A DNA stretch of 46,376 nt, taken from positions 1 through 46,376 of the IMG/VR virus record IMGVR_UViG_3300047369_000592, one strand, 5' to 3'. Positions 6,421 to 37,166 of the stretch are shown here, piece by piece. Made by a program: the position numbers and the translations under genes. Source of the stretch: a virus. The notes below the pieces were generated by a model. It made no database searches and was not told the DNA's origin. It saw only the letters and a list, made by a program, of their open reading frames with translations. Numbering within the stretch: position 1 is the first letter of the stretch; each line of letters opens with the position of its first letter.

Positions 6421-6632
6421 TGCGTACTATTGAAATGCCCGGTGGCATCCCTGTCTTTATTAGTAACTTAGAAAGCAAAGTATACGAGTGTATGAAAGAA
6501 GAAGTATGCAAAGAAGATCTAAGTGAACGTGACCAAGCAATTGCACAAAATTTAGTAAACAAAGGCCTTTGTTCTCGTGTTAGAAAAGAAGGCAAAATGT
6601 ATTTTAAAAGATCTCAAAATAGTTTAAAATGA
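6420..6632 (+). CDS. Small hypothetical protein, winged-helix-like pattern
   Basis: This 70-residue protein has a helix (ESKVYECMKEEVC), a second helix (ERDQAIAQNLVNKG) and a terminal basic hairpin (CSRVRKEGKMYFKRS). That order resembles a small winged-helix fold, which would suggest DNA binding, but no diagnostic motif is present. It is coupled by overlapping stop and start codons to the genes on both sides. Confidence 0.55.
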   Translation: MRTIEMPGGIPVFISNLESKVYECMKEEVCKEDLSERDQAIAQNLVNKGLCSRVRKEGKMYFKRSQNSLK

Positions 6633-7315
6633 TAATAAACACATATGGTTGTAGTTGGACAAGTGGTGTGAGTCTACAATATGGAAACTGGCCACTATAT
6701 TGTTCAATCAAGCGTCCTGATATTCATTGGAATAATTATGGTAGAGCAGGATCAAGTTTAACTTGGTCTACTTTCATTTCACAACTTGGTTTAAATAACG
6801 CAGATATTAATATAGTACAAGTAACTACACCTTGGCGATTAACCACATGGAACACAAATATTTCCAAAACACCACATAAATTTTTTAGAAACTGTAATGA
6901 TAAAAAATTTGAGAACCAGGGGGAAAACTATACGCAGTATAGAGTAACTTCAGACGTCAACGTATTAAACACTACTCCGGGAGATTTGAAAAAAGCGGTG
7001 AACAATACTAACGGTTTATTTAGAACACAAGAAAAAAATTTTCCGGAAATGTATTATGAGAGAGTAAATGAAGAATTACAATATTTTGAATGGATGACAA
7101 GTTTGCATTATCTAATAGAGAATGTTGATTTTGTTTTTTTATACGATTCTGTTCTACACGAAAGATATAGGTTCCTAGATACAAAAAATGTGCCATGTTT
7201 TTTCGAAAGTGAATTCTTTAATAAATACTGTATAGACGAAGGTAATCACTTTAACAGCGAGGGTAATCAATTACTGGCTGATTGGGTGTTACATAAAATT
7301 AGGAGATTGATATGA
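6629..7315 (+). CDS. SGNH-hydrolase-like protein, copy 1
   Basis: This 228-residue protein starts with the block I pattern of SGNH/GDSL esterases: IINTYGCSWTSG places Ser9 after GC, with a central NYGRAGSS segment that resembles block II. Near the C-terminus IDEGNHFNSEGNQLLADWV resembles block V, which supplies catalytic Asp and His (D203, H207). The block V spacing (DxxxH) is one residue longer than the canonical DxxH. Two other genes here share the GCS start and H-(x)n-G-(x)QLL ending, so this is a dispersed family. In bacteria such enzymes deacylate glycans or lipids. The substrate here is unknown. Confidence 0.6.
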   Translation: MIINTYGCSWTSGVSLQYGNWPLYCSIKRPDIHWNNYGRAGSSLTWSTFISQLGLNNADINIVQVTTPWRLTTWNTNISKTPHKFFRNCNDKKFENQGENYTQYRVTSDVNVLNTTPGDLKKAVNNTNGLFRTQEKNFPEMYYERVNEELQYFEWMTSLHYLIENVDFVFLYDSVLHERYRFLDTKNVPCFFESEFFNKYCIDEGNHFNSEGNQLLADWVLHKIRRLI

Positions 7316-9051: not shown

Positions 9052-9668
9052 GTGTAGGACTAAACGCATCACAAGCAAGAGCAAAAGCAAATCAGGACAT
9101 GGTAATTTATAATGAAGTGCAAACTATTATGTCTGAGATTATTAAAGAGAGTGCTCTTGGCTCGTTTGCCGCTATAGTTAGCGATGGAACTACAATGACA
9201 GAATCCTCTCCGCAAACACAGGTTGTTGGTGTAGTATCAACTCCAACTGTTGTTCCTGGAGCAACAATTATTATTAACGGTAACACTATTACGTTAGGTA
9301 CAACTGGTACTAATTTAAACAGTATCATTGCTGATATAAACGATGCGGCTATAGCAGGTATAACAGCAAGTAAAGACTCTACAAACAATCTAGTTATTAC
9401 CATTACACAACAACCATCGAATGTTTGGCAATATATTATTGGCGCAGGTTCTGCTAATACTGCAATTGGTATTACTGCTGGCACTTATGTACCAACGATG
9501 CCAACAAGTATTAATTACCATGATACTTGGAGGGGTACTCGTACTAACAGAGGCGAAAATCAACAAATGAACTCTATTATTAGATACTTTGAAAATATGG
9601 GTTATAAGATTGAGAGATCGGCAAACGTTACGAGTCAAAATACTTTTCAATGGAATGTATATTGGTAA
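9048..9668 (+). CDS. Probable virion structural protein
   Basis: This 206-residue protein has a helical N-terminus (ASQARAKANQDMVIYNEV, residues 7-24), then a Thr/Ile/Asn-rich beta section from about 50 to 150. The aromatic C-terminus contains YHDTWRGTRTNRGENQQM and ends FQWNVYW. The composition and the absence of catalytic motifs fit a tail, neck or decoration protein of T4-like marine phages, but I cannot name it. It overlaps the preceding gene and is followed after four bases by an SGNH-like gene. Confidence 0.55.
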   Translation: MSVGLNASQARAKANQDMVIYNEVQTIMSEIIKESALGSFAAIVSDGTTMTESSPQTQVVGVVSTPTVVPGATIIINGNTITLGTTGTNLNSIIADINDAAIAGITASKDSTNNLVITITQQPSNVWQYIIGAGSANTAIGITAGTYVPTMPTSINYHDTWRGTRTNRGENQQMNSIIRYFENMGYKIERSANVTSQNTFQWNVYW

Positions 9669-9672
9669 TCTA

Positions 9673-10368
9673 ATGAAGATTGCTATAATAGGATGTAGTT
9701 ATTCTTCAATTAAACAAGATAATGTAGGAACAAATTGTTGGACCTATCAATTATCACAATTATACCCACAACATGATTTTTTAAGTTATGCTATTCCTGG
9801 CTCAAGCCCAGAATATCACAAATTGTGTTATTATCATTGTTGTAATGAATCTAAGCCTGATATTGTTTTATTATCAACGACCCATAAAGGCAGAAGAACA
9901 CTTTTTAGAGGCGATAACGCACCAACTCTTCTACAAGATTATTCAGTTAATTATGAAAACTTAAAAGGCTTTACATTTCCATCAGGCGATATCGAACACT
10001 GGACAGGAACCAATGAAAGTTCTAATTCAAAATTTATTTCTGAATTTAGGGATTATTATATTACAACGGAATCATATGACAAGTATTATACTATGTGGTA
10101 TAAGTCACTTATTGAATATCCGCAAATTAAAACATTTATTTTAGACTTCAGTAAGTCAAGTCCTCCGCTTTATTACCATAACTCCTACACTGTTTGGGAA
10201 ATGTTAGAAAAAAAGTTTGGTAATACAAATGCAGTAAGAAATCCTGATAATGGAATATCATTAGGCTGGTTTGATGATCATTGGACTTATGAAGGGAACA
10301 AACTAGTTTTAAATGAGTATATTTTAAAGAACAATGGTCTTAAAAATCTACTTGACTTTACTAACTAA
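9673..10368 (+). CDS. SGNH-hydrolase-like protein, copy 2
   Basis: This 231-residue protein begins KIAIIGCSYSS, so Ser9 occupies the block I position. A segment SYAIPGSSPEYH resembles block II, and ADADI-type strands are replaced here by KPDIVLLS near residue 80. The C-terminal GWFDDHWTYEGNKLVLNEYI supplies the Asp/His pair of block V. The ATG at 9673 is chosen because upstream in-frame starts lie inside the preceding gene and the homologous copies start at the same point. It belongs to the same family as the genes at 6629 and 31749. Substrate unknown. Confidence 0.6.
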   Translation: MKIAIIGCSYSSIKQDNVGTNCWTYQLSQLYPQHDFLSYAIPGSSPEYHKLCYYHCCNESKPDIVLLSTTHKGRRTLFRGDNAPTLLQDYSVNYENLKGFTFPSGDIEHWTGTNESSNSKFISEFRDYYITTESYDKYYTMWYKSLIEYPQIKTFILDFSKSSPPLYYHNSYTVWEMLEKKFGNTNAVRNPDNGISLGWFDDHWTYEGNKLVLNEYILKNNGLKNLLDFTN

Positions 10369-23208: not shown

Positions 23209-23293
23209 GCGCCTGTGGTGAAATTGGTAGACACGCTAGATTTAGGTTCTAGTGCTTCACGGCGTGGGGGTTCAAGTCCCTCCAGGCGCACCA
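23209..23293 (+). tRNA. tRNA-Leu (anticodon UAG)
   Basis: The acceptor stem GCGCCTG/CAGGCGC is perfect. The anticodon loop is TTTAGGT (anticodon TAG). The long variable arm typical of class II tRNAs (TGCTTCACGGCGT) and T arm GGGGG-TTCAAGT-CCCTC are present, and CCA is encoded. Confidence 0.96.
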
Positions 23294-23310
23294 ACTTTTG
23301 TGAGGATAGT

Positions 23311-23811
23311 ATGTATAAGGTAACTGCATTATTTAAAGACCAAAAGGTAACACAATTATTTTATGATCTTTATGATGCTATCGATTTTAAAGATACGGTG
23401 GACGCACACTATCCTGACAAAGTAACATTAACTAAAGGAGTGTTCTCAATGAGAGAATGGATTTACAACAGTTGGAATGTTGTTATGGATCATGAAAAGA
23501 ATCCATTAAGTAATATTCCAGATTTTAGTACACGGCATTTAATTATGCAGGTCCTTGCATGGATGTGGTGTATTACATTCGCTATGATGGTAGGCAGTTG
23601 GACAGTGTTCGGCATTAGTGCTATTGCTCACGTTGTTCTAATTGGTGCTATTGTAGTTACTGTAGCGACATTTAGAGTTGCACAAACAAATCCTAATTCG
23701 TTTTCTATAAAGTCTGGTTATCATACAACAAGTAGAACAAGACAGACTATGTGGATAAACGGACAACAAATTAAACTAGATCCTCGTGATCCAGGTGGGG
23801 AACACGAATAA
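23311..23811 (+). CDS. Membrane protein with two transmembrane helices
   Basis: This 166-residue protein has a soluble N-terminal region of about 80 residues, including VTLTKGVFSMREWIYNSW, then two hydrophobic helices at about 78-99 and 101-124 (LIMQVLAWMWCITFAMMVGS and FGISAIAHVVLIGAIVV). The C-terminal tail is basic and polar (RTRQTMWINGQQIKLDPRD). The ATG at 23311 follows GTGAGGATAG; an in-frame extension upstream would run into tRNA-Leu and is rejected. Family not recognised. Confidence 0.65.
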   Translation: MYKVTALFKDQKVTQLFYDLYDAIDFKDTVDAHYPDKVTLTKGVFSMREWIYNSWNVVMDHEKNPLSNIPDFSTRHLIMQVLAWMWCITFAMMVGSWTVFGISAIAHVVLIGAIVVTVATFRVAQTNPNSFSIKSGYHTTSRTRQTMWINGQQIKLDPRDPGGEHE

Positions 23812-24906: not shown

Positions 24907-25756
24907 AAACGGAACACAGGATAGCATTGCTTGGTGGTTATGTGAGGAAGAAGATATAGGCCCACAAATCTACAATGTGCCGTGGCGTAGCGGAAAAATA
25001 CAAGCAGAATTTGAACATCCTTTACTAGGTACTCTAGTAGAGGATATTCGTACCTATGATGAACATGACGAAACGATGCGTCTTATGGAAAACGTACCAG
25101 GAGACTTTTTACAGCCTTGGAGAAAGTTTGACAAGCAGGATTACAAACTTGTTTGGAGTAATTACTTTGGTGAAATGTGTGAACCTTCACAAAACATTAT
25201 AGCAGACAAGTTAATACTATGCAATCAAACACGAGAGGAAGATTGCTTCCATTATATCATCAGTCATGCATTTAAAAAATTAACAAAAGATAAAGTTGAT
25301 GATGACACCGAAGTATGGTGGAAAGATCATGTTTATGTTGATGGTAAAGATATTGGTATGTGGAAAGATATATGGTATGGAAAGTATCATGAATCAATGC
25401 ACAAGGCATTTGATGAAGGTAAATTAAAGTACATGTGGCAATTAAATTTTGCACATTGGGATTTATACCATGCACTACAAGATAATAAAGTTGACGTAAC
25501 TTTAGAAGATCCAGATAATTATACTCGTTTGTTTGAAGATAAGTTAAAAAAAGAATATGATAGTATTGAAGATACTATTATGCACAATGATGGACTTATA
25601 ATTGTAGACCCAAATTGGTTTGTACAAGCAGATCAAATATTAGAATATTTAGAAATCCCGTGGACAGATAATTTAAAAACTAATTTAAATGATTATATGG
25701 AAGTGTATAAGCGTAAACGTATGTGGTACGAAACTAATTTTGCAGACTATCTCTAA
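24884..25756 (+). CDS. Hypothetical protein, distant sulfotransferase-like tail
   Basis: This 290-residue protein is aromatic- and acid-rich. Its first residues (MIAIYGNKNGTQDSIAW) are a strand followed by a turn, in the position of a nucleotide-binding loop but not a Walker motif. Near the end, VDPNWFVQADQILEYLEIP resembles the sulfotransferase pattern in which a strand is followed by a DPExxLxxLxLP helix. The product at 30618 has a similar end (WCQFENISRIYQYLGITPP). The similarity is weak. It ends by overlapping a converging minus-strand gene by 23 bases. Confidence 0.5.
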   Translation: MIAIYGNKNGTQDSIAWWLCEEEDIGPQIYNVPWRSGKIQAEFEHPLLGTLVEDIRTYDEHDETMRLMENVPGDFLQPWRKFDKQDYKLVWSNYFGEMCEPSQNIIADKLILCNQTREEDCFHYIISHAFKKLTKDKVDDDTEVWWKDHVYVDGKDIGMWKDIWYGKYHESMHKAFDEGKLKYMWQLNFAHWDLYHALQDNKVDVTLEDPDNYTRLFEDKLKKEYDSIEDTIMHNDGLIIVDPNWFVQADQILEYLEIPWTDNLKTNLNDYMEVYKRKRMWYETNFADYL

Positions 25757-26504
25757 GCATTTCATATGATTCAATTACAAGTTTTGCCATTCTTGGATGA
25801 TCTTCTTTTCCATGTATAATCATATGTACTCTCGGTTCAGTACTTGTATTTAGAACGGTATGCTTTCTTCCAATATCAATAGCTCGGCAATCTCCAACCT
25901 CCCACGGTATTTCTCCAGCATCTTCCATAGCAAATTTTACACCGGGAGGGTTTGTGATAGCGACATTAAATGCTTCCATTCCTCGTTTATCATTATCTTG
26001 GTGTGGACGTATATAACCTCCTGGACGTAACATCATAAAACGTACCCGGTCGTATTCAGCATTTGGCCAAACATCATTTAACCATTCCACTGTGCGAGGA
26101 CATTTTCCTGCAATAGTTGTCCATGTGTGTAGTGGTTTTTCTGTATAATTTTTATGTTCATAAACACGACTACGCCAGTCATCTGTTTGATCAACACTAA
26201 CACCATGTAAACACATACTTTCCCAGCCAGGATGAATGCTACCTCTATGCTTAACAAAATGTTCTTCTATTGTAGCAAGTTCATCACTAATATCTTTTGA
26301 TGGCATTTCAATATTTAATTTTAGACTAGGTAAGTTCGCCTCGTATTTTATCCACTTATAGTAAGTAAGAACGCTATGACTATTTTCCCGCCAACCTAAC
26401 AACCTTTCTGGAGGATTAAAATTTGAATGTTCATAATGCGAATGCTTTGAACAATCATTTATAAACTCTTGTACTATTTTTAAATTTTTTTCATATAATG
26501 TCAT
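25734..26504 (-). CDS. Aspartyl/asparaginyl beta-hydroxylase-like Fe(II)/2OG oxygenase
   Basis: This 256-residue protein is a 2-oxoglutarate-dependent oxygenase. The iron ligands are H168 and D170 in GGYIRPHQDN and H215 in GRKHTVLN, and R225 in EPRVHMIIHG would bind 2-oxoglutarate, the order of the Asp/Asn beta-hydroxylase family. The preceding RFMMLRPG strand and VGDCRAIDIG fit the same fold. The enzyme would hydroxylate a peptide or other substrate, which is unknown here. It is on the minus strand, downstream of and coupled to the 493-residue gene by a one-base ATG/stop overlap. Confidence 0.85.
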   Translation of the reverse strand: MTLYEKNLKIVQEFINDCSKHSHYEHSNFNPPERLLGWRENSHSVLTYYKWIKYEANLPSLKLNIEMPSKDISDELATIEEHFVKHRGSIHPGWESMCLHGVSVDQTDDWRSRVYEHKNYTEKPLHTWTTIAGKCPRTVEWLNDVWPNAEYDRVRFMMLRPGGYIRPHQDNDKRGMEAFNVAITNPPGVKFAMEDAGEIPWEVGDCRAIDIGRKHTVLNTSTEPRVHMIIHGKEDHPRMAKLVIESYEMLRDSLQN

Positions 26505-27985
26505 TATAAACCATACTTTCTAACTTCGTCCCAGTTGATTCCATTTTCATTAAACCAGGGTAAAACATTTAAGAAACGTTCTTGAGAACTTCCCATTAAT
26601 ATTTTATTCTGTTTAGAAAAGGTTACATTCGGATACATATTTTCAATTTCATGTATAATTTGAATTATTTGTCCTCTAAACCAAACCCTGTCCTCAAAAT
26701 TCCAAAAGAACGCGGTAGGATAGTATTGTAATATATTACTAAAGTTAAAATGTACAATGATTTTTCTATCCGGATCTCTCTTTACTGACTCTTTAATGTA
26801 TTTAATAAACATGCGTTTAAAACGTCGTGTGTCAAATAAATCACATGTCTCAAAGTTAATTTTAAACCTTTTATAAACTGTAGTATACCAATTTTTAAAA
26901 GCATTATGATTTTCGATATATTCTGAAAACTCTTTTTTGTTTCCTAATCCTCTGCAAAATTCACGTAGAATACCTTCTGCATCTCCTCGAGGAAATATAC
27001 GGTCTTGATATTGCTCCATTGTTTCTACATTGGGATTCCAATTCCTGTGTAGCAAGTATTGATACTTAACAGCCACTGTGCTTTTATCATATATAATAAT
27101 TTGACCGTATTTTCTTATGTCTGGTTGGAGAGCATAACCCCATGATTCCTGTACTACAGGATAACCTATTATTCTATAAGCGTCAAATGAGGCTGATAGA
27201 CCGCCGGCAGGTGCAAATATAATATGTTTATATTCTTCTGTATTGCGCCGTGCTTCTTGTAATTTAATATCTTCTGTATTTGTGATATAAATTACTTCTT
27301 GATTCATAGCACGATTCATCAAGTCAATTATTTTTTCTCTATACTCGTCTACTTCTGGATACAAGTATTCATACTGTTGTCTAATCTCTGGAGGCCATAC
27401 TCCAATACCTGTTGGCGTTTTTAGTGCTTCGTTTACTAAGTTCCAACCATAACGTTTATTTTTAAATGTAACATTTTCCGTTCCTGGTTTAACCCAATGA
27501 GGTGTATAGTCATCATGGAAGTTTTCATCTGAACGTAAAGGGGCAACTTGTGTATGAGATCCAGATTCATCTTCTCCTACTGTTTTGCCATGAAACCAAT
27601 TTACATCTATTAATGCTAATTGTGGATGTATATAATAGTAGTCGTCTTTTCCGTCTAGTACATGCCCGACAAAGACTTCACCATTATATTTCTCCTCAAA
27701 CCAAGAAGGAAATTTATAAAAGAACTTTTTAAGGTCCATGCCTACTTTAAAAATTAATAAATGAGAAACATTTCCATGTGCTTGCTCAATTAATTCTTCA
27801 ATTGTATCAGCATAATAAAATATTTCATATCCGATAATGGATATATCAGTAACATAAAACTCAGTAATATTTTTACAATATTCACGAACTAAGTTACCTT
27901 TCATTCTGTTGTTTGATAGTATACCGATACCAACAGTTTTGTTCTGATGAACGGCGGATCCATCTGTAACAACATTGTATTCCAT
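26504..27985 (-). CDS. Hypothetical protein, glycosyltransferase-like features
   Basis: This 493-residue protein is not securely recognised. Residues about 100-130 (VGHVLDGKDDYYYIHPQLAL, then IDVNWF) resemble a segment of glycosyltransferase-like proteins in which a DxxYY turn is followed by a HPQ strand. The middle (HIIFAPAGGLSASFDAYRII, about 245-265) looks like a Rossmann-type strand-loop-helix, and the C-terminal half is helical with VHFNFSNIL. It has an AGGAG ribosome-binding site upstream of its ATG and a late octamer on the minus strand at 28024-28017. It is paired with the Asp/Asn hydroxylase-like gene. Confidence 0.5.
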   Translation of the reverse strand: MEYNVVTDGSAVHQNKTVGIGILSNNRMKGNLVREYCKNITEFYVTDISIIGYEIFYYADTIEELIEQAHGNVSHLLIFKVGMDLKKFFYKFPSWFEEKYNGEVFVGHVLDGKDDYYYIHPQLALIDVNWFHGKTVGEDESGSHTQVAPLRSDENFHDDYTPHWVKPGTENVTFKNKRYGWNLVNEALKTPTGIGVWPPEIRQQYEYLYPEVDEYREKIIDLMNRAMNQEVIYITNTEDIKLQEARRNTEEYKHIIFAPAGGLSASFDAYRIIGYPVVQESWGYALQPDIRKYGQIIIYDKSTVAVKYQYLLHRNWNPNVETMEQYQDRIFPRGDAEGILREFCRGLGNKKEFSEYIENHNAFKNWYTTVYKRFKINFETCDLFDTRRFKRMFIKYIKESVKRDPDRKIIVHFNFSNILQYYPTAFFWNFEDRVWFRGQIIQIIHEIENMYPNVTFSKQNKILMGSSQERFLNVLPWFNENGINWDEVRKYGL

Positions 27986-28008
27986 TCTAGACTCCTAGGA
28001 TAATTAAG

Positions 28009-28024
28009 TATAAATATATTTATG
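28009..28024. promoter_or_regulatory. Divergent, overlapping late promoters
   Basis: TATAAATA on the plus strand (28009-28016) and CATAAATA on the minus strand (28024-28017) are back to back. Together they form a perfect 14-base palindrome, ATAAATATATTTAT (28010-28023). The plus copy lies five bases before the ATG at 28022. The minus copy leads, after about 30 bases and a CTAGGAG site, to the ATG of the minus-strand gene at 27985. Confidence 0.7.
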
Positions 28025-28738
28025 CTAAGAAATAATGAAACTAAACAGGAAATACTTAGCAGGCTTGAGCCCACTAAAGTAATTCAAAACTGTTTACCTA
28101 AAACGCTACATCATAAATTATTAGATGCCTATTGGACTGGTGATAAAAATCAAAAGAACACAGGACCAATAACTGTTGATTATTTTCCTAATAAAATGGA
28201 ACATACTGATTGGTGGTTAGAGGTCAATGAATTTATAACAGACTACATAGGCGATCATGGATGCTTTGCTAGTAACTTCTATCATGTTAAGCACCCACAT
28301 GTATTACACAATGATGATAGTATTCGTTGGGTTCCGAGATTACATAAAACTGTTGTAATACCATTGGAAATATCTGCACCAACAAATTTTGCAGTATTTG
28401 ACCAATGTTATCTAGATGGGCCAGTAAAGTTAAGACATGGCGGCGATCCTGATAAGAATGCTGAAATGCGAAATACCTACTATAATCAAAATTTACTTGA
28501 CAATAATGTACTAATAAACTATACTGGAGTAGAATTTGATAAAGATACATGGACGAAATACTTCACACACCTTCCCTATGAACGTTTTTATGGGTTAAGT
28601 GTAGAAAGCATTGTTACATGGAATCCTGGAGATATTATTATTTTTGATACGGCCCGTATTCATTGTGCCTCAAACTTTTTACAACATGGCATTACTGAAA
28701 AAATTGGTTATAGCATATTCACAAACTTGAAAGTATAA
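28022..28738 (+). CDS. Fe(II)/2OG-type oxygenase, member A
   Basis: This 238-residue protein has a jelly-roll oxygenase arrangement. H96 and D98 in HVLHNDD form the HxD pair, and H214 in GDIIIFDTARIHCASN is the distal histidine in the typical GDxxxFxxxxxH context. The arginine that binds 2-oxoglutarate is not obvious. The family would be phytanoyl-CoA-dioxygenase- or prolyl-hydroxylase-like. The ATG lies five bases after a perfect late octamer, so the mRNA may be leaderless. The stop overlaps the next, related oxygenase. Substrate unknown. Confidence 0.7.
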   Translation: MLRNNETKQEILSRLEPTKVIQNCLPKTLHHKLLDAYWTGDKNQKNTGPITVDYFPNKMEHTDWWLEVNEFITDYIGDHGCFASNFYHVKHPHVLHNDDSIRWVPRLHKTVVIPLEISAPTNFAVFDQCYLDGPVKLRHGGDPDKNAEMRNTYYNQNLLDNNVLINYTGVEFDKDTWTKYFTHLPYERFYGLSVESIVTWNPGDIIIFDTARIHCASNFLQHGITEKIGYSIFTNLKV

Positions 28739-29514
28739 TGACATATATAGATAATTGTAAAACTTACCTAAGGGAAATTACTGGTGCCTTTGAACCAGCA
28801 CAGTCTATACCCGACTTCTTTACAGAAAAAGAAATCAATGACCTATTATTGTTACAATTCCAACTAGCAGATAGGTTAAAGTATACGGCTACATCTAATA
28901 ATATACAACCTGTGTGTAATATTGATAGTTTATTTGAAAAATTACCTTGGTTAGCAGATAAATTTAAAGCCGTGATAGGCGATTTTATGGATAATCATTC
29001 TGGTAATTATTATATTACTACGCAATTGCATGATGCACACGTTGATTTATTAAGTGAGGAAGAAACATTACGTCCTGAATTTGCTTGGAGTAAACGGGTA
29101 ATACCCTATAAAAGTTGTGTAATACCTCTTATTATTACTCCTGGAGCAGAAGCACAAACGGCTTTCTTTCATCAACGACATGTTGGTTATAGTGTTACAC
29201 TGGATCGTGCAAACGTCAGCAGTCAAGATAACAGCGATTACACATTAGCACGGATGTACCCAACGATGTATAATATAGATGGAAGTGAAAGTGGTCATTA
29301 TGAACCATATGAACGTAAGAAGTTTATCTTGTTCCCTCAAATACCACTTGCTAATTTAACTGGACTAAGTGTAGAGACTGTTTTAGATTATGATATTGGT
29401 AGTGTTATGATATTTGATGCATGTCAAATACATGCAAGTTGTGTAAAAAGAAATAAACCTAATTACCGCTGGTTAAAAAGCGGAATTAATATACAATTTT
29501 ATAAGGAAATTTAA
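28738..29514 (+). CDS. Fe(II)/2OG-type oxygenase, member B
   Basis: This 258-residue protein is a likely paralogue of the preceding gene. HxD is at H101 and D103 (LHDAHVDLL), and the distal histidine H232 lies in GSVMIFDACQIHASC, aligned with the equivalent segment upstream. The phrase GLSVExxxxxxxG is shared before the distal motif in both (GLSVESIVTWNPGD and GLSVETVLDYDIGS), which supports duplication. It overlaps both neighbours by one base, so the three-gene set with FNR is one translation-coupled operon. Substrate unknown. Confidence 0.7.
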   Translation: MTYIDNCKTYLREITGAFEPAQSIPDFFTEKEINDLLLLQFQLADRLKYTATSNNIQPVCNIDSLFEKLPWLADKFKAVIGDFMDNHSGNYYITTQLHDAHVDLLSEEETLRPEFAWSKRVIPYKSCVIPLIITPGAEAQTAFFHQRHVGYSVTLDRANVSSQDNSDYTLARMYPTMYNIDGSESGHYEPYERKKFILFPQIPLANLTGLSVETVLDYDIGSVMIFDACQIHASCVKRNKPNYRWLKSGINIQFYKEI

Positions 29515-30278
29515 TGCAAAACTTAGAAACTGTTCTTGATATAGAACATTATACTGAAGATTTGTTTTGGTTTAGAACAACCAAAAATGGAGAATGGAAA
29601 CGTAACTTTATGCCTGGTGAATTTACCATGATAGGTATGGGCGACGATGATATTTCTCGTGCATATAGTATTGCTAATAGTCCAGATGATGATTATTTGG
29701 AGTTTTTAAGCATTAAGGTACCAGATGGGCCTTTGACAAGCCGTCTACAACATATAAAAATAGGTGATGAACTAGAAGTGACCACACGTCCAGTTGGTAC
29801 ATTATTACTACGAAATCTAAATATGTATAATTTAGATCACGATAAACCAAGATTATGGTTAATTAGTACTGGCACCGGACTTGCTCCATTTTTAAGCATT
29901 GCTAGACATCCGGAGGCATATGAATATTATGATGAAGTTATTGTTACCCATACCTGTCGCACTAATGATGAGCTCGTGTTCGGTGATGAACTCAGAGCCG
30001 CCGGTGCTAAAGTGTACCAGAGTGTTACAAGAGAAGACCCTTTACCGGGAAGACATCGGGGGAGAATTACTGACCTACTCAGAAACGGTGACTTGTTCAG
30101 GAGTATTGGAGGACGTGATGAATGGTTTGACCATAGTAGAGATCGGATTATGATTTGCGGCGGCCCAAGTTTTAATAATGAACTACGAGATATTCTTGAG
30201 AAAGATGGAATGGTGCATGGTACTATGAAATCACCAGGTCACTTTGTACAAGAAAGAGCATTTGTCCAAACACTATAA
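29514..30278 (+). CDS. Ferredoxin/flavodoxin-NADP+ reductase (Fpr type)
   Basis: This 254-residue protein moves electrons between NADPH and a one-electron carrier. RAYSIANSP (about 50-58) is the FAD-binding motif, GPLTSRLQH follows in the usual place, and STGTGLAPF (about 118-126) is the NADP-binding loop. CGGPSFNNELRDIL is the second nucleotide segment, and the C-terminus HFVQERAFV matches the bacterial Fpr ending with an aromatic/acidic tail. No ferredoxin or flavodoxin gene is visible in this window, so the partner may be from the host. Coupling to two oxygenase genes suggests that it supports that pathway or nucleotide reduction. Confidence 0.9.
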   Translation: MQNLETVLDIEHYTEDLFWFRTTKNGEWKRNFMPGEFTMIGMGDDDISRAYSIANSPDDDYLEFLSIKVPDGPLTSRLQHIKIGDELEVTTRPVGTLLLRNLNMYNLDHDKPRLWLISTGTGLAPFLSIARHPEAYEYYDEVIVTHTCRTNDELVFGDELRAAGAKVYQSVTREDPLPGRHRGRITDLLRNGDLFRSIGGRDEWFDHSRDRIMICGGPSFNNELRDILEKDGMVHGTMKSPGHFVQERAFVQTL

Positions 30279-30281
30279 ATA
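30274..30281 (+). promoter_or_regulatory. T4-type late promoter octamer (TATAAATA)
   Basis: Perfect TATAAATAC overlapping the FNR stop codon. The expected start of transcription, about six bases after the last A, falls at 30287-30288, exactly at the start of the inverted repeat. Confidence 0.75.
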
Positions 30282-30287
30282 CCTATA

Positions 30288-30362
30288 CAGTAGGGTATAT
30301 AATGTGGCCATGCCTTTGAAAGCATATAAGAAAACAGCCCGATGGACAAGTATACCCTACTG
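30288..30362 (+). ncRNA. Structured RNA element with a 12-bp closing stem
   Basis: CAGTAGGGTATA at 30288-30299 is the exact reverse complement of TATACCCTACTG at 30351-30362. Inside, TGT(GG)CCAT near 30303-30311 can pair with ATGGACA near 30342-30348, and CTT-TGA-AAG can form a small loop. The element starts where a late transcript should begin. There is no T-loop, anticodon arm or CCA, so it is not a tRNA. It could be a 5' leader of the gene at 30384 or a stand-alone small RNA. I do not know a matching family. Confidence 0.6.
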
Positions 30363-30383
30363 ATTTTATAAAGGGTATGACAA

Positions 30384-30617
30384 ATGATAAAACCAAATAC
30401 AAAAGGCTTAATTGTAGATATTACTGAGGTATATGAAATTCGCGATAGAAAAGAACGTGAACTAGCATATTATACCAAACAACTTGAAGAACTATATACT
30501 AAGATGGGTTTTATACAACAAGAAATAAAAGTCACGAATACCATTATTGATATGATTGAAGATGAACGTGTCTTAGATATTAAAGAACATATGATGAAAA
30601 GGCACAATCAATTATAA
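30384..30617 (+). CDS. Small coiled-coil protein
   Basis: This 77-residue protein is helical with a heptad pattern over about residues 18-60 (RKERELAYYTKQLEELYTKM, then FIQQEIKV). The C-terminus is basic. It begins 22 bases after the structured RNA, preceded by AAAGGGTATG. Its stop is directly followed by the ATG of the next gene. Function unknown. Confidence 0.6.
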   Translation: MIKPNTKGLIVDITEVYEIRDRKERELAYYTKQLEELYTKMGFIQQEIKVTNTIIDMIEDERVLDIKEHMMKRHNQL

Positions 30618-31397
30618 ATGTTATATTTAATCCTAAGCCCTAGTTGTTTAAGTCAAATGGAAGTTCCATATCTAATTAATAATTCTCCTGATTTTATGGG
30701 TGAACAACCACACGACTTACATTGGGCATCATACGAAATAAATGGAAATACTGTAGACGGAGAGTACGGACATTTTGGTACTGTCCGTGTTCATGATGAC
30801 TATTGGAATATTGATGACGAAGATAAACAATTTTATAATTTTAATATTCGTAATAGTATGGAATTATCTTATGAAGATTACATAGCATTAGAGAAACATT
30901 TCACAAACAAATATAATAATATTTCTCTGTTACTACACGCAGATAATATTGAAGAAATATATGCCTGGTGTAATAATACCAAGGTAACAATCATTGGCGC
31001 CGCAATGGGAAGTTGGCTTAATGATTTAGAGTATTGGGCAATGCGAGAGTTTAACACTGTTATGGAAGATAATCGTAATGCCAATTATAGTGACAACAAT
31101 CATGTATTCATTAATAATGATGATGTGCTAGATAGATTCTGGCATCGTAAAGAAGCAGATTTGTCATGGAGGAATCGTATTAGTTCTTTTGCAGATATAA
31201 CTCTATGGCAAAGCGATTGGTGTCAATTTGAAAACATTAGTCGTATATATCAATATTTAGGTATTACACCGCCAAGTCGTAAATGGATTAAGACTTACTA
31301 TACTGTATTTCAAGATAAACAAGATTATGCAGTAGAAAACTTGGCCGCATTACGAAAAAGTTATAATATCAGGGAGTCATATTATGGAAGATGTTGA
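30618..31397 (+). CDS. Hypothetical protein, distant sulfotransferase-like
   Basis: This 259-residue protein begins with a hydrophobic strand and a polar turn (LYLILSPSCLSQMEVPYL). It has a middle strand NTKVTIIGAAMGSWLNDLEY (about 123-142). The C-terminal LWQSDWCQFENISRIYQYLG (about 196-216) resembles the sulfotransferase 3' region where a strand and D/E precede an xxLxxLG helix. No full PAPS-binding motif is visible, so this is tentative. It immediately follows the coiled-coil gene and overlaps the next by 14 bases. Confidence 0.5.
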   Translation: MLYLILSPSCLSQMEVPYLINNSPDFMGEQPHDLHWASYEINGNTVDGEYGHFGTVRVHDDYWNIDDEDKQFYNFNIRNSMELSYEDYIALEKHFTNKYNNISLLLHADNIEEIYAWCNNTKVTIIGAAMGSWLNDLEYWAMREFNTVMEDNRNANYSDNNHVFINNDDVLDRFWHRKEADLSWRNRISSFADITLWQSDWCQFENISRIYQYLGITPPSRKWIKTYYTVFQDKQDYAVENLAALRKSYNIRESYYGRC

Positions 31398-31746
31398 AGG
31401 CGTCTATTTAATGGATAAGCCTATAAAAATTTATGTATTCAAAGATGAAGATGAAGTGAAATTAAGTTTAAAATTATCTGATTATGCTAATATAGGAAAG
31501 CGTATGAGTATTAAAGACTTTCAATATATATGCGATAATTGGCGTGAAGGAGTAGATGGTTTAGAAACAAAAGGTGGAAAATTTTATTGGTATTACAGTG
31601 ATTGTGGCCCTCGCCCTGAATGTCCACCTAGTAAACATGTACAAATCAATGTCAGTTCGTTTAGTTTTCGTATAAGTGTACCTACTATGGAAGCACTAGT
31701 TGAAGAATTTAATTACCAACTTAATAATAAAATGCATTGGGATTAA
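31384..31746 (+). CDS. Hypothetical protein
   Basis: This 120-residue protein reads as an alpha/beta fold. Strands KIYVFKDEDEVKLSLKL and HVQINVSSFSFRISVP flank a helical stretch, and a Cys pair lies in SDCGPRPECPPS. The ATG at 31384 follows GGGAG and overlaps the end of the preceding gene by 14 bases. An ATG at 31411 is an alternative start. It is followed after two bases by an SGNH-like gene. Function unknown. Confidence 0.5.
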   Translation: MEDVEGVYLMDKPIKIYVFKDEDEVKLSLKLSDYANIGKRMSIKDFQYICDNWREGVDGLETKGGKFYWYYSDCGPRPECPPSKHVQINVSSFSFRISVPTMEALVEEFNYQLNNKMHWD

Positions 31747-31748
31747 AT

Positions 31749-32396
31749 ATGCGAGTTGCAATTATTGGATGTAGCCATACATTTGTAGATGATATACAAC
31801 CAAGTTGGACACGTTTTTATGCGGAACAAAATCCAAGAATACAAATAGATAATTATGCACACTTTGGTCATGGACATTTATATATGGACATGGTACTAAA
31901 ATATTTGTTATATGAAAATAAATCGTATGATAGAATTGTAGTACAAATGACTGGAGATAAACGTTGGCACGCTGCAATAGAAGCAGATATTGGTTATAAT
32001 TGGATAGCACAAAAGATTACAGATAATTTAAACCGTATATACTTAGATACGCCACGCATAGTTTATAATACAGTTGATAAAAAGAATCATGTTAAGATAC
32101 CTGGTTCGATCCATCAAAATGGTTCTATAATACCACAAAACAAATTAAATCAATACAAACCAGGCCCGTGGAATTTAGCACAATACTATAGTCAACTGTT
32201 TGAAAAACAAATACAGACTATAGATAACTTATCTTACTTTCATTTTAAAGATGTCAAAGTTGCATTCATTGAAAAATACGGTGAAGAATATTTATTGACA
32301 CATTTAATGGATGAGACACTACACTTTAACAAGTATGGGCATCAATTATTTTATGAATACTTAGTAAAAAGTAATATTTTACCCCTTATTCAATAA
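31749..32396 (+). CDS. SGNH-hydrolase-like protein, copy 3
   Basis: This 215-residue protein begins RVAIIGCSHTF (Ser9 as in the other two copies), has a central NYAHFGHGHLYMD segment that could supply the block II glycine, and SYDRIVVQMTG as a following strand. The end MDETLHFNKYGHQLFYEYL supplies an Asp/His pair in block V position with DxxxH spacing. The ATG at 31749 is chosen over an upstream TTG. It lies beside sulfotransferase-like and oxygenase genes, so it may act on the same polymer. Its stop is followed by AATAAATA. Confidence 0.62.
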   Translation: MRVAIIGCSHTFVDDIQPSWTRFYAEQNPRIQIDNYAHFGHGHLYMDMVLKYLLYENKSYDRIVVQMTGDKRWHAAIEADIGYNWIAQKITDNLNRIYLDTPRIVYNTVDKKNHVKIPGSIHQNGSIIPQNKLNQYKPGPWNLAQYYSQLFEKQIQTIDNLSYFHFKDVKVAFIEKYGEEYLLTHLMDETLHFNKYGHQLFYEYLVKSNILPLIQ

Positions 32397-32399
32397 ATA
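32392..32399 (+). promoter_or_regulatory. Possible late octamer (AATAAATA)
   Basis: AATAAATAG overlaps the stop of the SGNH-like gene and precedes GGGGGAAT and the ATG at 32418. The base after it is G, not the usual C. Confidence 0.45.
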
Positions 32400-32417
32400 G
32401 TATTGCGGGGGAATATA

Positions 32418-32909
32418 ATGCTAAAGAAATTAAAACCGACTACCTTTGATTGGTTATTGTTAGGAATAATAGTCGCAGTATTCCTATTTGTTGGTTGCCT
32501 TTTTACTACTTTTTTAAAAGTACAACAAGCAAAACCCCTAGAAAACATAAAAGCCTGGACTGTTGAACCAATTTATGAAGATTCATTTGAATTAGTTTGG
32601 GAAGGTCATTATGACCGAGATATTCCTTGTAAACTTTACGATTATAAATTGTTTTTTACAAATATTGCTACAAACGATATACTAGTTGTAGGTAAAGATC
32701 ATTTAACTCGTGAACCAAGTATGAATATTGCTCCAGGAAAAAATATTCCAATTAATTTTGCTATTAAAAAACCTTCAGGCATGTATCAAGGTAAATGGAA
32801 AACGATGTTTGAAGGTTATTATATGTGTAAAAAAGGAATTTTTATGTCTGAAGTACATGTATATGAGCCAGTAAATCCATTTACTGTGTTACCAGCCAAA
32901 GAGAAATGA
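32418..32909 (+). CDS. Single-pass membrane protein with extracytoplasmic beta domain
   Basis: This 163-residue protein has one N-terminal transmembrane helix at about 11-37 (FDWLLLGIIVAVFLFVGCLF) preceded by lysines, so the rest is predicted to lie outside the cytoplasm. The soluble part is beta-rich with two cysteines (IPCKLYD and YMCKKG) that could form a disulfide. It may be an envelope or superinfection-type protein; no family is recognised. The ATG at 32418 is favoured by GGGGGAA. It overlaps the next micro-gene by four bases. Confidence 0.6.
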   Translation: MLKKLKPTTFDWLLLGIIVAVFLFVGCLFTTFLKVQQAKPLENIKAWTVEPIYEDSFELVWEGHYDRDIPCKLYDYKLFFTNIATNDILVVGKDHLTREPSMNIAPGKNIPINFAIKKPSGMYQGKWKTMFEGYYMCKKGIFMSEVHVYEPVNPFTVLPAKEK

Positions 32910-33064
32910 AGATAGTTGAACGTAAATACAACCAGTTTGTAGTATACGATAACAACGGAAAAGTCTTACTTATGACAACAAATAAACTAATGGCCATGCA
33001 TGTATATAAGACAGGCAAAGTTAAATATGCAAAAAATCCTCCAAAACCTAAAAAAACTTTATAA
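32906..33064 (+). CDS. 52-residue basic micro-protein
   Basis: The short open frame begins at an ATG that overlaps the preceding TGA. The product has strands KYNQFVVYDNNGKVLLMTTN and a Lys/Pro-rich tail (KTGKVKYAKNPPKPKKTL). It is followed by an early-type promoter. Function unknown; the overlap coupling is the main reason to believe it. Confidence 0.5.
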   Translation: MKIVERKYNQFVVYDNNGKVLLMTTNKLMAMHVYKTGKVKYAKNPPKPKKTL

Positions 33065-33070
33065 AAAAGG

Positions 33071-33099
33071 TTGACAAGTAAGGCATCTTACTATATAGT
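33071..33099 (+). promoter_or_regulatory. Sigma70-type promoter with operator-like spacer palindrome
   Basis: TTGACA at 33071-33076 and TATAGT at 33094-33099 are separated by 17 bases. The spacer contains the inverted repeat AGTAAG-GCAT-CTTACT at 33077-33092, placed where a repressor could block polymerase. It drives the gene at 33133. Confidence 0.75.
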
Positions 33100-33132
33100 A
33101 TAAGTATAGTTAGAAACAAACAGGAGTTGCAA

Positions 33133-33549
33133 ATGGCTTATATTTCCGCAGATGACGTAAAACATATTCGTGTAGCACTTAAAGAAGAATTTGGCAATAC
33201 ATATAAGTTTAGTGTGAGGCGTGATCATAGTTCAGGTGTACGGGTTACATTTAAACAAGGTCCTGCATTTGAGATTACTAAGCGATTTGATCCTTATAAG
33301 CATGAAGAAATTGAAGTTGATATCAACGAATATGAACAGATTAACCATTATCATGCAGAGAAATTGTATGGTGAGAATAATGCTAAAATTATTGAGAAAG
33401 TAAGTGAAATTGTCCATACTGCTCCAGCAAAAGCAGGTGGTAGGTCTTATTATTGTAATGATGATATCCAAAGTGATTACTTTGACCGTGCTTATTACGT
33501 TAACATTCATGTTGGTGCTTGGGACAAACCTTATGAGGTTACTGCTTAA
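33133..33549 (+). CDS. LPD29-like domain protein
   Basis: This 138-residue protein resembles the LPD29 domain found in phage and mobile-element polyvalent proteins: VKHIRVALKEEFGNTYKFSV (about 9-28), HSSGVRVTFKQGPAF (32-46) and a C-terminal YYVNIHVGAWDKPYE strand. The family has no known function. The ATG at 33133 follows CAGGAG. It sits behind a strong sigma70-type promoter, so it is probably made early and may act against the host. The next gene starts immediately at a TTG. Confidence 0.6.
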   Translation: MAYISADDVKHIRVALKEEFGNTYKFSVRRDHSSGVRVTFKQGPAFEITKRFDPYKHEEIEVDINEYEQINHYHAEKLYGENNAKIIEKVSEIVHTAPAKAGGRSYYCNDDIQSDYFDRAYYVNIHVGAWDKPYEVTA

Positions 33550-34293
33550 TTGGAAAAACGTCCTTTAGAACATAAGGCTTTTGATCGTCCGTACCAGGTA
33601 TTTTTCGTACCTGGTTCTGGCGGCCACTTCATTTCAAATCTTATATATATGATGTTACATGGAAATGTAGAGTGGGGTAAACTGAATAATCAAGTTAATG
33701 AGTATGATAATATAGGTGAGGTTGACAATTCTATTAACTGTTGTCACCATGAAATGATATTTTTAGTTGATAAAGCAGGCGGGCATGTAGATAATTGGGT
33801 ATTTGAACGTACTAAAAGCCGTGCAATAGATATGATAGACATTTTAGCAGGTAAAAAAGTTTTATTTGTTGATTGTTTTAATTGTTGGCCATATATAATG
33901 GGCCTAGCTCGTATTAAAAATAATAATAAAGCAAATCGTCCTGTAGAATGGATAGAACAGTATTTTAATGGATACTTTGATAAAACACGACCTAATATTG
34001 GAAAACTTCCTAAAAGACAAGAAAATGCTATAAGACATTTAAAATGGGGACAAAACTATTACCAACGTAATCACCCTTGTCATGTAATAAATTATAAACG
34101 TTTGTTTATAGAACTAGAAACAGATGAATTAATTAATTTATATAAGTTTGTAACAAATAGAATACCTACAAGCTCAGAAGTTGAACTATTAATGCAGGAG
34201 ATACATGATTATCATTGGCGTAATGTATTACTAGTACAAAAATACATACCTCAAGGGTCTACGATAAATGATATGTTTGCGTATAAATACTAA
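33550..34293 (+). CDS. Sulfotransferase-like P-loop protein
   Basis: This 247-residue protein has FFVPGSGGHFISNLIYMML near residues 18-36, in the style of the 5' phosphosulfate-binding loop of sulfotransferases (a GSGGH/N turn then helix). CHVINYKRLFIELETDELIN near 175-194 resembles the 3' element in which a strand and YxxL are followed by a helix. It is therefore likely to have a sulfotransferase-type fold, although the catalytic residue is not clear. It starts at a TTG directly after the preceding stop, with no good ribosome-binding site. It may modify a host or virion glycan. Confidence 0.55.
   Translation: MEKRPLEHKAFDRPYQVFFVPGSGGHFISNLIYMMLHGNVEWGKLNNQVNEYDNIGEVDNSINCCHHEMIFLVDKAGGHVDNWVFERTKSRAIDMIDILAGKKVLFVDCFNCWPYIMGLARIKNNNKANRPVEWIEQYFNGYFDKTRPNIGKLPKRQENAIRHLKWGQNYYQRNHPCHVINYKRLFIELETDELINLYKFVTNRIPTSSEVELLMQEIHDYHWRNVLLVQKYIPQGSTINDMFAYKY
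34282..34289 (+). promoter_or_regulatory. T4-type late promoter octamer (TATAAATA)
   Basis: Perfect TATAAATAC inside the last codons of the sulfotransferase-like gene. It lies five bases before the ATG at 34295, which predicts a leaderless transcript. Confidence 0.7.
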
Positions 34294-34294
34294 T

Positions 34295-34483
34295 ATGACG
34301 ATAATAGAGCAAAAGACTGCTGAGATAAAACGTCGGATCGCCGAACTAAAACAGCGATTTTCTTATCTATATGAATCAGACAATCAACACTTGACAACTA
34401 TTGAAAAACAAAGTAATATAAAAGATAGTAAAAGAGATGAAGAACTAAATTCAATCAAAGCCAAACTGATGAGGAAAAGATAA
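34295..34483 (+). CDS. Small coiled-coil protein, probably leaderless
   Basis: This 62-residue protein is highly charged and helical (IIEQKTAEIKRRIAELKQRF), with a basic end (SIKAKLMRKR). The ATG at 34295 fits a transcription start predicted by the perfect late octamer. An ATG nine codons upstream, inside the preceding gene, is less likely. It is coupled to the next micro-gene by a one-base overlap. Function unknown. Confidence 0.55.
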   Translation: MTIIEQKTAEIKRRIAELKQRFSYLYESDNQHLTTIEKQSNIKDSKRDEELNSIKAKLMRKR

Positions 34484-34656
34484 TGACTATACTTAATATT
34501 AATTCTTTTGAAACATGGGCTAGTAATAAGTGGTTTGAACATAAGAAAGAAGTTCTAGTTTGGAATGGAAAACCCGTAACAGAGTATACATTTGAGGAAT
34601 GGTTAGCAAAAAACCTTTCTTTTTTGAAGCAATTATATCTAGAGGAGACTAACTAA
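34483..34656 (+). CDS. 57-residue hypothetical protein
   Basis: The short open frame begins at an ATG that overlaps the previous TAA and follows GAGGAAAAG. The product is Trp/Phe/Glu-rich (SFETWASNKWFEHKKEVLVW) and ends in an amphipathic helix (EEWLAKNLSFLKQLYLEE). Its TAA overlaps the next ATG. The two overlaps make it likely to be a real member of a coupled series. Function unknown. Confidence 0.6.
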   Translation: MTILNINSFETWASNKWFEHKKEVLVWNGKPVTEYTFEEWLAKNLSFLKQLYLEETN

Positions 34657-34868
34657 TGTTTGGAATTGATAACGGTATTATTGCCGTATTGTGCGGTATT
34701 GCTCTTGCTTACTGTGGTTACCGACTTGGTAAGGATAGTGGTGTAAAATCAGGAATTGATCTCACACTTCAGCATTTGGCTGACCAAAAGTTTATTAGAG
34801 TTGTAGAGCATAATGGCGAACACCATATTATGGCTGGACAACCCGAAGTTGAAAATGAGACAACATAA
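34656..34868 (+). CDS. Small membrane-anchored protein
   Basis: This 70-residue protein has one N-terminal hydrophobic helix (about 6-24, GIIAVLCGIALAYCGYRLG) with a short cytoplasmic-type tail that contains HLADQKFIRVVEHNGEHHI, a possible strand pair. It follows a GAGGAG site within the preceding gene. It overlaps the oxygenase-like gene by 14 bases. Function unknown. Confidence 0.6.
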   Translation: MFGIDNGIIAVLCGIALAYCGYRLGKDSGVKSGIDLTLQHLADQKFIRVVEHNGEHHIMAGQPEVENETT

Positions 34869-35709
34869 ATTATCTACAAAATTTAATCATAGTAATGAAG
34901 CTCTGGAAGCAAATGATGAAGGAATTCCGTGGACTATTAATAAAGCGGACTATCCTTTGCCTTCAGATGTGTGGAATAAGTGTGAAGATTTATTCAGTAC
35001 ACTGACTACTGAACAGTTTATATTGACTAATGTGATTGATGACCATGAACCAACATGTAACAGGTGGCAAGATGAAGACTTACCTAATAAGATATGGAGT
35101 CTAAACCACAGTGGACCTGTTTATGGATTAGATGTAGACTATATGGCAGGATTGCATGATTGGTATAAAGATGAGGATACATTACCAAAAGATGATTGGG
35201 TAAAGCGCCGCAAAGTATATCTATATAACTGGTCTCGAAGTAAATTGCTTATGCCGTATCCAGAATTAGAATATTTTATGGATATATATGATAAGTTTTT
35301 ACCTGTTATGGAACATTGCGAAGGTTTATACTCTGAACAAACACCAGAAATTGAAAAATATATCCATAAATTAATGATTATTGAATATAGTACTCCTAAT
35401 TGTACAGATGCAGAAGAAGTATTTTATAGAAAGCATTGTACAGAACGCTTTGGAGATTCGCATTGCGATGAGACAATGGCAGGATTACATTTAGGTGAAA
35501 ACTATAGTGAGTTTGAGTATTATAATCATAAATCTAAAGAATGGGCAAAATTTGACTTTACTAACGATTATATTTGGATGAATGGATTATATTCTAAATT
35601 TTCTGGATATAAACCTACCTATCATAGGATGGTACATAATCCTAATCCAAAGTATAGTACAAGATATTCAATAATATTTGACCTACAACCAAGATACAAG
35701 GAGAATTAG
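34855..35709 (+). CDS. Fe(II)/2OG-type oxygenase-like protein, member C
   Basis: This 284-residue protein has a C-terminal oxygenase-like core: H203 and D205 in GDSHCDETMAGLHLG as the HxD pair, then SGYKPTYHRMVHN with H257 (or H261) in the position of the distal histidine, and R270 in STRYSIIFDLQP as a candidate 2-oxoglutarate-binding arginine. The order SGYxPTxHRV-(x)n-RYSIxF is like that of non-haem hydroxylases. The N-terminal 180 residues are acidic and aromatic. The ATG at 34855 is an estimate. It ends one base before clpP, whose ribosome-binding site overlaps its last codons. Confidence 0.6.
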   Translation: MRQHKLSTKFNHSNEALEANDEGIPWTINKADYPLPSDVWNKCEDLFSTLTTEQFILTNVIDDHEPTCNRWQDEDLPNKIWSLNHSGPVYGLDVDYMAGLHDWYKDEDTLPKDDWVKRRKVYLYNWSRSKLLMPYPELEYFMDIYDKFLPVMEHCEGLYSEQTPEIEKYIHKLMIIEYSTPNCTDAEEVFYRKHCTERFGDSHCDETMAGLHLGENYSEFEYYNHKSKEWAKFDFTNDYIWMNGLYSKFSGYKPTYHRMVHNPNPKYSTRYSIIFDLQPRYKEN

Positions 35710-36308: not shown

Positions 36309-37166
36309 ATGAAGATTGAAGATATTGTAACAGAAAAATGTTGGCCAGGCTACCGTAAAGATGGTATGAAAACCCATTACGGCAAACGTGTTCCTAATTG
36401 TGTAAAAAATGAAGATGGGAAATTAGTTAAACTAGATCCTAAAGGACCTGATAACCTTAAGAAACTTAAAAAGTTAAGCAAATATCAACGAATGAAGGCA
36501 ATTCTACAACGCCAAGATGATATAAATGAAGGGCCAAATGATCCTGCAATTTTTAAAGCAATCTTTACTGCTGGCGGCCCCGGAAGTGGAAAGTCATATG
36601 TTGTAAGAAATAGTGGCTTTCAATCAATGGGATTCAAAGTTGTTAATAGTGATATTGCATTTGAAAAAATGTTAAAAGCAATGGATATGACAGCAGATCC
36701 AGAAACTATATATAGCCCTGCAGGACAAGAAGTTAGGGATAAAGCAAAAAATGTTACAAAGAAACGCCAGGAACTATTCACACAACAGGGCAGATTAGGT
36801 CTTGTAATGGATGGTACTGGTAAAGACTATGTAAAGATCATCACGTTTAGTGAAAAACTTAAAAAATTAGGTTACGAAACTGCAATGGTATTTGTTAATA
36901 CTGATTTAGAAACTGCATTAAAACGTAATACTGAACGTGACAGAACACTACCAGAAGACGTGGTTAAAGAAATGTGGAAACAAGTTCAAAATAATATTGG
37001 AAAATTCCAAAGATATTTTAAACAAGATATGATTATTATTGATAATAGTGAAGATCATGATGTACAAGGCGATTTAACAACCGCATACAAACAAATAGGT
37101 GATTGGGCTAAAAGTTTCCCTCAAAATAAAATAGCACAAACGTGGCTTGCCCAACAAAAGCAATGA
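36309..37166 (+). CDS. P-loop kinase (zeta-toxin / polynucleotide-kinase-like)
   Basis: This 285-residue protein has Walker A GGPGSGKS at 89-96, followed by helix SYVVRNSGF and KVVNSDIAFEKML, where the aspartate occupies the position of the zeta-toxin/PNK phosphate-acceptor region. LGLVMDGTGKD near 160 and AMVFVNTDLETALKRNTERD near 193-212 (lid arginines) complete the kinase core. The N-terminus contains a separate module (CWPGYRKDGMKTHYGKRVPN, then C). Related proteins are known in T4-like marine phages. The substrate may be nucleic-acid ends or a nucleotide sugar; the motif does not decide. The gene may be leaderless. Confidence 0.75.
   Translation: MKIEDIVTEKCWPGYRKDGMKTHYGKRVPNCVKNEDGKLVKLDPKGPDNLKKLKKLSKYQRMKAILQRQDDINEGPNDPAIFKAIFTAGGPGSGKSYVVRNSGFQSMGFKVVNSDIAFEKMLKAMDMTADPETIYSPAGQEVRDKAKNVTKKRQELFTQQGRLGLVMDGTGKDYVKIITFSEKLKKLGYETAMVFVNTDLETALKRNTERDRTLPEDVVKEMWKQVQNNIGKFQRYFKQDMIIIDNSEDHDVQGDLTTAYKQIGDWAKSFPQNKIAQTWLAQQKQ

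Follow-up and report, generated by a model that had tools for sequence, protein, structure and literature searches.

What might a phage with T4-like features do with several Fe(II)/2-oxoglutarate (Fe/2OG) oxygenases and an NADPH-dependent reductase set close together in one stretch of its genome? The question arises in the window, a 46-kb virus record (46,376 nucleotides) that carries T4-like genes for primase/DnaB helicase, class I ribonucleotide reductase (RNR), glutaredoxin (Grx), ClpP and ClpX. A sequence-only reading had singled out a block holding four such oxygenases, the reductase, and glycosyltransferase (GT)-like, sulfotransferase-like and SGNH-like genes. The genes that it named all exist as full open reading frames (ORFs) in the ORF list of the window, and the block does contain four Fe/2OG-type proteins (25734, 28022, 28738 and 34813, each named here by its lowest coordinate), recognized by a Pfam match, a fold model and invariant motifs, with motif conservation the basis for 34813. 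That last gene is real; 34855, first taken as its start, is an ATG inside the full ORF, 34813-35709. The solid unit of the block is 28022-28738-29514; 34813 and 25734 belong to families of their own, and they were not observed alongside the reductase-oxygenase pair in every relative.

The two plus-strand oxygenases of this unit (28022-28738 and 28738-29514) are tandem paralogues, as had been proposed: a single family profile matches both (E 1.8e-74 and 6.6e-111). In an alignment of 33 homologues the HxD...H triad (H101, D103 and H232) is invariant, as are K125 and D227; two basic residues, K125 (invariant in the 33 sequences) and K247 (in the first nine), are candidate ligands of the 2OG carboxylate. 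The AlphaFold model of 28738, the paralogue that was modelled, is confident (pLDDT 92.6, pTM 0.90), and its top Foldseek matches in the PDB are the Fe/2OG enzymes SnoN, EctD (ectoine hydroxylase), proline hydroxylase H11 and KanJ (E ~1e-5, probability 1.0), joined by viral 2OG oxygenases in BFVD. Model and matches support a double-stranded beta-helix fold and, with the invariant site, bear out the predicted assignment of 28738 as an Fe(II)/2OG oxygenase. With TM-scores of only about 0.4, the relation to known Fe/2OG enzymes is distant: EctD, trans-proline hydroxylase H11, KanJ and SnoN (PhyH-like and related) have the fold and triad in common with the 28738 family but only 8-16% identity. Neither paralogue was identified by sequence searches of Pfam, PHROG and the PDB, no Pfam model was significant for the family, and one scan of bacterial genomes, by a method that reaches close relatives only, found none. 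Among 50,697 phage records there were zero matches to 28738, 25734, 34813 or 26504, and the oxygenase families were not found among cultured phages. Both paralogues fall in a previously unclassified oxygenase family with at least 33 viral members.

The third member of the unit (29514-30278, plus strand) is, by homology, the NADPH-dependent reductase that had been named, and clearly a ferredoxin/flavodoxin-NADP(+) reductase (FNR) of the bacterial Fpr type. It matches bacterial FNRs of the PDB over its full length (phmmer, 1e-59) and carries the Pfam domains FAD_binding_6 and NAD_binding_1; the FAD motif (RAYS; RxYS), the NADP motif (GTG.AP; GTGxxP) and an ICG motif are invariant among seven aligned phage FNR homologues. 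FNR matches were also returned from INPHARED, and, to judge by the names and sizes of the records and by their gene names, they appear to be bacterial fpr genes on host-derived contigs, not phage relatives. A TAATG stop/start overlap joins 28022 to 28738 and again 28738 to 29514, and from this arrangement the three genes are a translationally coupled redox cassette. A box resembling a T4 late promoter, TATAAATA (28009-28016, plus strand), lies 13 nt before the ATG of 28022, and L001 has a similar box at -16, L009 one at -11. The box is not enriched across the window (5 observed, 10 expected) so that we claim for it no more than a conserved position in three phages; it is possibly, and weakly, compatible with late expression of the cassette.

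Does this pairing extend beyond one genome? Scans of viral contigs gave 37 oxygenase and 80 FNR locus entries, on overlapping sets of contigs, and the FNRs fell into 42 clusters at 90% identity. An oxygenase of the 28022/28738 family is adjacent to the FNR, on the same strand and within 150 nt, in 13 of the 42 clusters, and lies within 3 kb in 16. The oxygenase precedes the FNR in seven clusters (the window, L001, L002, L014, L039, L043 and L049) and follows it in nine, and start/stop overlaps (gaps of -4 or -1 nt) are present in both orders. The two orders sit on separate branches of the FNR tree, split at 100/100 (root arbitrary), each group also including FNRs without an adjacent oxygenase. 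Where a locus has one paralogue, it may be of the 28738 or the 28022 type; the latter is the sole oxygenase adjoining the FNR in many of L074-L103. The neighbourhood expected in other marine phages is thus present in them, because the pairing recurs across FNR clusters, orders and branches.

Beside the FNR in L053, L090, L107 and L115, and one gene off in L105, there is a homologue of the window's glutaredoxin gene 19556, with no adjacent oxygenase. This adjacency, the class I RNR and Grx of the window, and the hypothesis of 2OG modulation raised for cyanomyoviruses (PMC3037559) would fit a reading in which modular exchange holds together unrelated accessory metabolic genes. The FNR would then act in redox balance, in Fe-S repair or in the reduction of ribonucleotides, and the oxygenases would use up 2-oxoglutarate or modify unrelated targets. 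We consider this improbable. Repeated start/stop-overlapped pairing of the FNR with one oxygenase family, in both orders, is hard to obtain by chance, and the family occurs in 29 of 48 FNR-positive contigs (a set partly gathered via the oxygenase) versus none of 23 controls, which are contigs that lack an FNR but have a helicase of the window's family.

The sequence-only reading overlooked a third recurrent partner, for there are radical-SAM (rSAM) genes in or beside the same operons. Profile libraries identify as radical SAM the genes of 320-390 aa beside FNR and oxygenase, in the orders oxygenase-FNR-rSAM (L002), rSAM-FNR-oxygenase (L013/L093) and FNR-rSAM-oxygenase (L083, L097); FNR-rSAM without an adjacent oxygenase occurs in L086 and in L048, which is cut at its 5' end. 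The FNR overlaps or abuts the rSAM gene in L002, L093/L013, L083, L086 and L048. Across contigs, which are not phylogenetically independent, rSAM was found in 36 of 48 FNR-positive records versus 6 of the 23 controls (Fisher p 2e-4), and among contigs of 30-70 kb, likewise not independent, in 17 of 23 with FNR versus 3 of 18 without (p 4e-4). These counts are lower bounds, since the rSAM of G007 escaped the genome search yet was found directly. The 46-kb window yielded no rSAM gene; in G001 (135 kb), the relative closest to it, rSAM and SPASM-like genes occur as a split pair. At some loci a split radical-SAM ORF (~210-235 aa) stands beside an ORF of ~105-140 aa with a PCC-type motif, and two adjacent ORFs of this kind, an rSAM domain and a PCC-motif SPASM-like segment, are seen in L083 (4450-5501), L086 (5009-5967) and L197 (1444-2419). 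Matches to rSAM reach 25 in G033 (L094, 183,842 bases), 20 in G035 (L096) and 18 in G041 (L103). Cysteine desulfurase-like and IscU-like ORFs were recognized by eye in several rSAM neighbourhoods, and a family search found IscU in 15 of 50 records. In L019 (1-12756; also L020-L025) several rSAM ORFs and, by eye, an amidinotransferase-like ORF accompany an oxygenase of the 28022/28738 family; no FNR was found in the L019-L025 contigs.

Which partner, then, would the reductase serve? The FNR might act for the two oxygenases, re-reducing via a host shuttle the Fe(III) left by uncoupled turnover in a self-sufficient hydroxylase system to which rSAM proximity is incidental. The tightest coupling is indeed that of oxygenase and FNR, in two opposite orders, and some contigs with both show no detected rSAM (for example G020, 124 kb), in a search that missed at least one real rSAM, that of G007. 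Yet the oxygenase stands without an FNR in seven contigs above 80 kb, and the FNR of L086 and of 5'-truncated L048 abuts rSAM with no oxygenase adjacent. Moreover, Fe(II), 2OG and O2 suffice for Fe/2OG oxygenases, with no reductase required, so the FNR probably serves the rSAM/Fe-S side at least partly. We regard exclusive service to the oxygenases as rather unlikely.

The reading that we prefer, to which we give about even credence, is that the cassette FNR feeds radical-SAM enzymes of the virus while the two oxygenases contribute to the same modification pathway. Of its components, the oxygenase fold and active site, the FNR, the gene overlaps and the adjacency in two FNR lineages come from sequence or structure prediction. 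Several observations tell against this reading: the window yielded no rSAM, some contigs with both FNR and oxygenase showed none, the oxygenase is present in rSAM-rich contigs that lack an FNR, some FNRs lie beside glutaredoxin instead, and shuttle proteins encoded by phages are scarce. The FNR would take electrons from NADPH, and a host flavodoxin or ferredoxin would carry them on to radical-SAM enzymes encoded by the virus, a supply route for such enzymes that is established biochemistry for FNR/Fpr with flavodoxin or ferredoxin (PMC10470005). A host shuttle is implied because phage-encoded ones are rare (Fer2 in 1 and flavodoxin in 2 of 50 records, 3/50 in total). The radical-SAM partners would be those encoded in or beside the operon in relatives and, in the nearest relative, the split rSAM and SPASM-like pair elsewhere in the genome. 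With 2-oxoglutarate from the host and O2, both oxygenases would hydroxylate or oxidize the same presumed class of substrate. Our guess is that this would most likely be a peptide or glycan of the virion or envelope, a choice favoured because a hydroxylase and GT-like pair lies divergently next door.

That pair, on the minus strand, overlaps in a manner akin to the TAATG junctions of the cassette, and its members are also neighbours in L001, L002, L009 and L012. The hydroxylase, 25734 (25734-26504), is of the Asp/Asn Fe/2OG type: it matches Asp_Arg_Hydrox (PF05118) at 8.8e-12 and 45.6 bits, above the curated cut-off of 22.6, and in its family the HxD (H168, D170) and a distal His are invariant. 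Profile comparison with the 28738 family left only a short distal-His stretch as the shared part. For the GT-like gene, 26504 (26504-27985), the first assignment stood in part. The AlphaFold model (pLDDT 77) is of a two-domain protein, and its N-terminal part is GT-A-like, with a partial Foldseek match to the PBCV-1 capsid glycosyltransferase 2p73 (129 columns, E 3e-3, probability 0.98); the rest is without GT support, its C-terminal half appearing Rossmann-like from predicted secondary structure. The likeness to this enzyme, A064R, covers about 130 of 493 residues and is one of fold only. No Pfam match and no PDB or PHROG sequence identity was obtained for 26504; an LDxxD motif is present in the longer homologues only, and shorter ones lie downstream of FNR-oxygenase operons in L074-L102.

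An oxygenase combined with a GT-like protein in a phage also brings to mind hypermodification of DNA bases, in which a TET/JBP-like oxygenase would act first and a GT after it. A P-loop kinase in the window (36309-37166) matches a 5-hmdU DNA kinase model weakly (E 0.013) but scores better as AAA_33 or zeta-toxin. The top structural matches of 28738 are hydroxylases of small molecules and amino acids (EctD, proline hydroxylase, KanJ), not TET/JBP or AlkB, and no modified-nucleotide biosynthesis gene was found among the window genes scanned. Such a pathway is very improbable in our judgement, and direct DNA modification is unlikely.

The rest of the block is more varied. The fourth oxygenase, 34813 (34813-35709, plus strand), has H217, D219, H271, R284 and S286 invariant among 12 homologues, an HxD...H...RxS pattern which we take to be typical of IPNS-like oxygenases; on these residues it is probably an IPNS-like Fe/2OG enzyme. 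It had no Pfam or PDB match, and profile comparison gave no link between its family and that of 28738. Tandem paralogues of the 34813 family occur in L001 (13041-14568) and L049 (11057-12677). Immediately downstream of the cassette, on the plus strand, come a small conserved ORF (30384-30617; 20 distinct homologues, mostly in the same place), a syntenic protein of no known family (30618-31397; aligned in 18 sequences, no Pfam match above cut-off) and a small syntenic protein (31384-31746; 23 distinct homologues in the same order). The sulfotransferase-like label was not upheld: 24884, 30618 and 33550 had no Pfam match, nor did the 24884 and 30618 families, and the 24884 family had none in the PDB. 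Single-gene sequence searches, which covered Pfam, PHROG and the PDB, left 24884, 30618 and 34813 without an identity. For 31737, tentatively labelled SGNH-like, GCSHT and DETLHFN motifs are visible, and a Pfam match was not obtained. A GCS-type N-terminal motif, SGNH hydrolase-like, occurs in three window ORFs (6629-7315, 9589-10368 and 31737-32396), none of them with a Pfam match. Elsewhere in the window, a tRNA-Leu (23209-23293) overlaps the 5' part of ORF 23215-23811, whose true start is for that reason probably downstream.

How does the module compare with what is known of such phages? Cyanomyoviruses, which are T4-like and marine, have several Fe/2OG oxygenases, and the available part of PMC3037559 does not mention coupling of these to FNR or radical SAM. 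Their 2OG-Fe(II) and phytanoyl-CoA dioxygenase-like proteins match 28738 structurally (BFVD), with no sequence match to its family in the phage collection. Campylobacter phages CP220 and CPt10 encode 11-12 radical-SAM proteins and an amidinotransferase in interchangeable cassettes (PMC2853527); the likeness lies in rSAM, and loci of the L019 type combine rSAM with an amidinotransferase-like ORF (by eye), but that paper mentions no oxygenase. T4-like viral genomes from the environment that carry 12 rSAM genes, ATC/IscU and Grx (PMC5332604) and pelagimyophages with rSAM cassettes and a core Asp/Asn hydroxylase (PMC7029224) are rSAM-rich, Fe-S-equipped marine myoviruses of the same kind as the cassette phages; these two papers mention no ferredoxin and no ferredoxin reductase, and the relevant passages contain no FNR-oxygenase-rSAM operon. 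No description of such an operon was found in the literature searched, a scope outside which most subscription journals fall.

Fe/2OG oxygenases are numerous in marine myoviruses, and so, as a separate observation, are radical-SAM genes; the literature cited here gives no demonstrated function for either set. Pairing of one FNR with both predicts that the two sets share their electron supply and their substrate, and coupling of all three would explain the IscU-like genes in many of these viruses. In its widest and more doubtful form, which we put forward tentatively, the proposal is of a mobile, virus-specific system for post-translational or glycan modification, comparable on the phage side to the RiPP or sugar-tailoring clusters of bacteria. 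In it a dedicated NADPH reductase may power rSAM/SPASM maturases, some of them split over two ORFs, which would act together with a new family of Fe/2OG oxygenases on molecules of the virion or of the host envelope in marine bacteria. Across related ocean phages the oxygenase-FNR module is rebuilt in differing gene orders with radical-SAM enzymes, and this recurrent module points to an oxidative modification pathway run by the phage.
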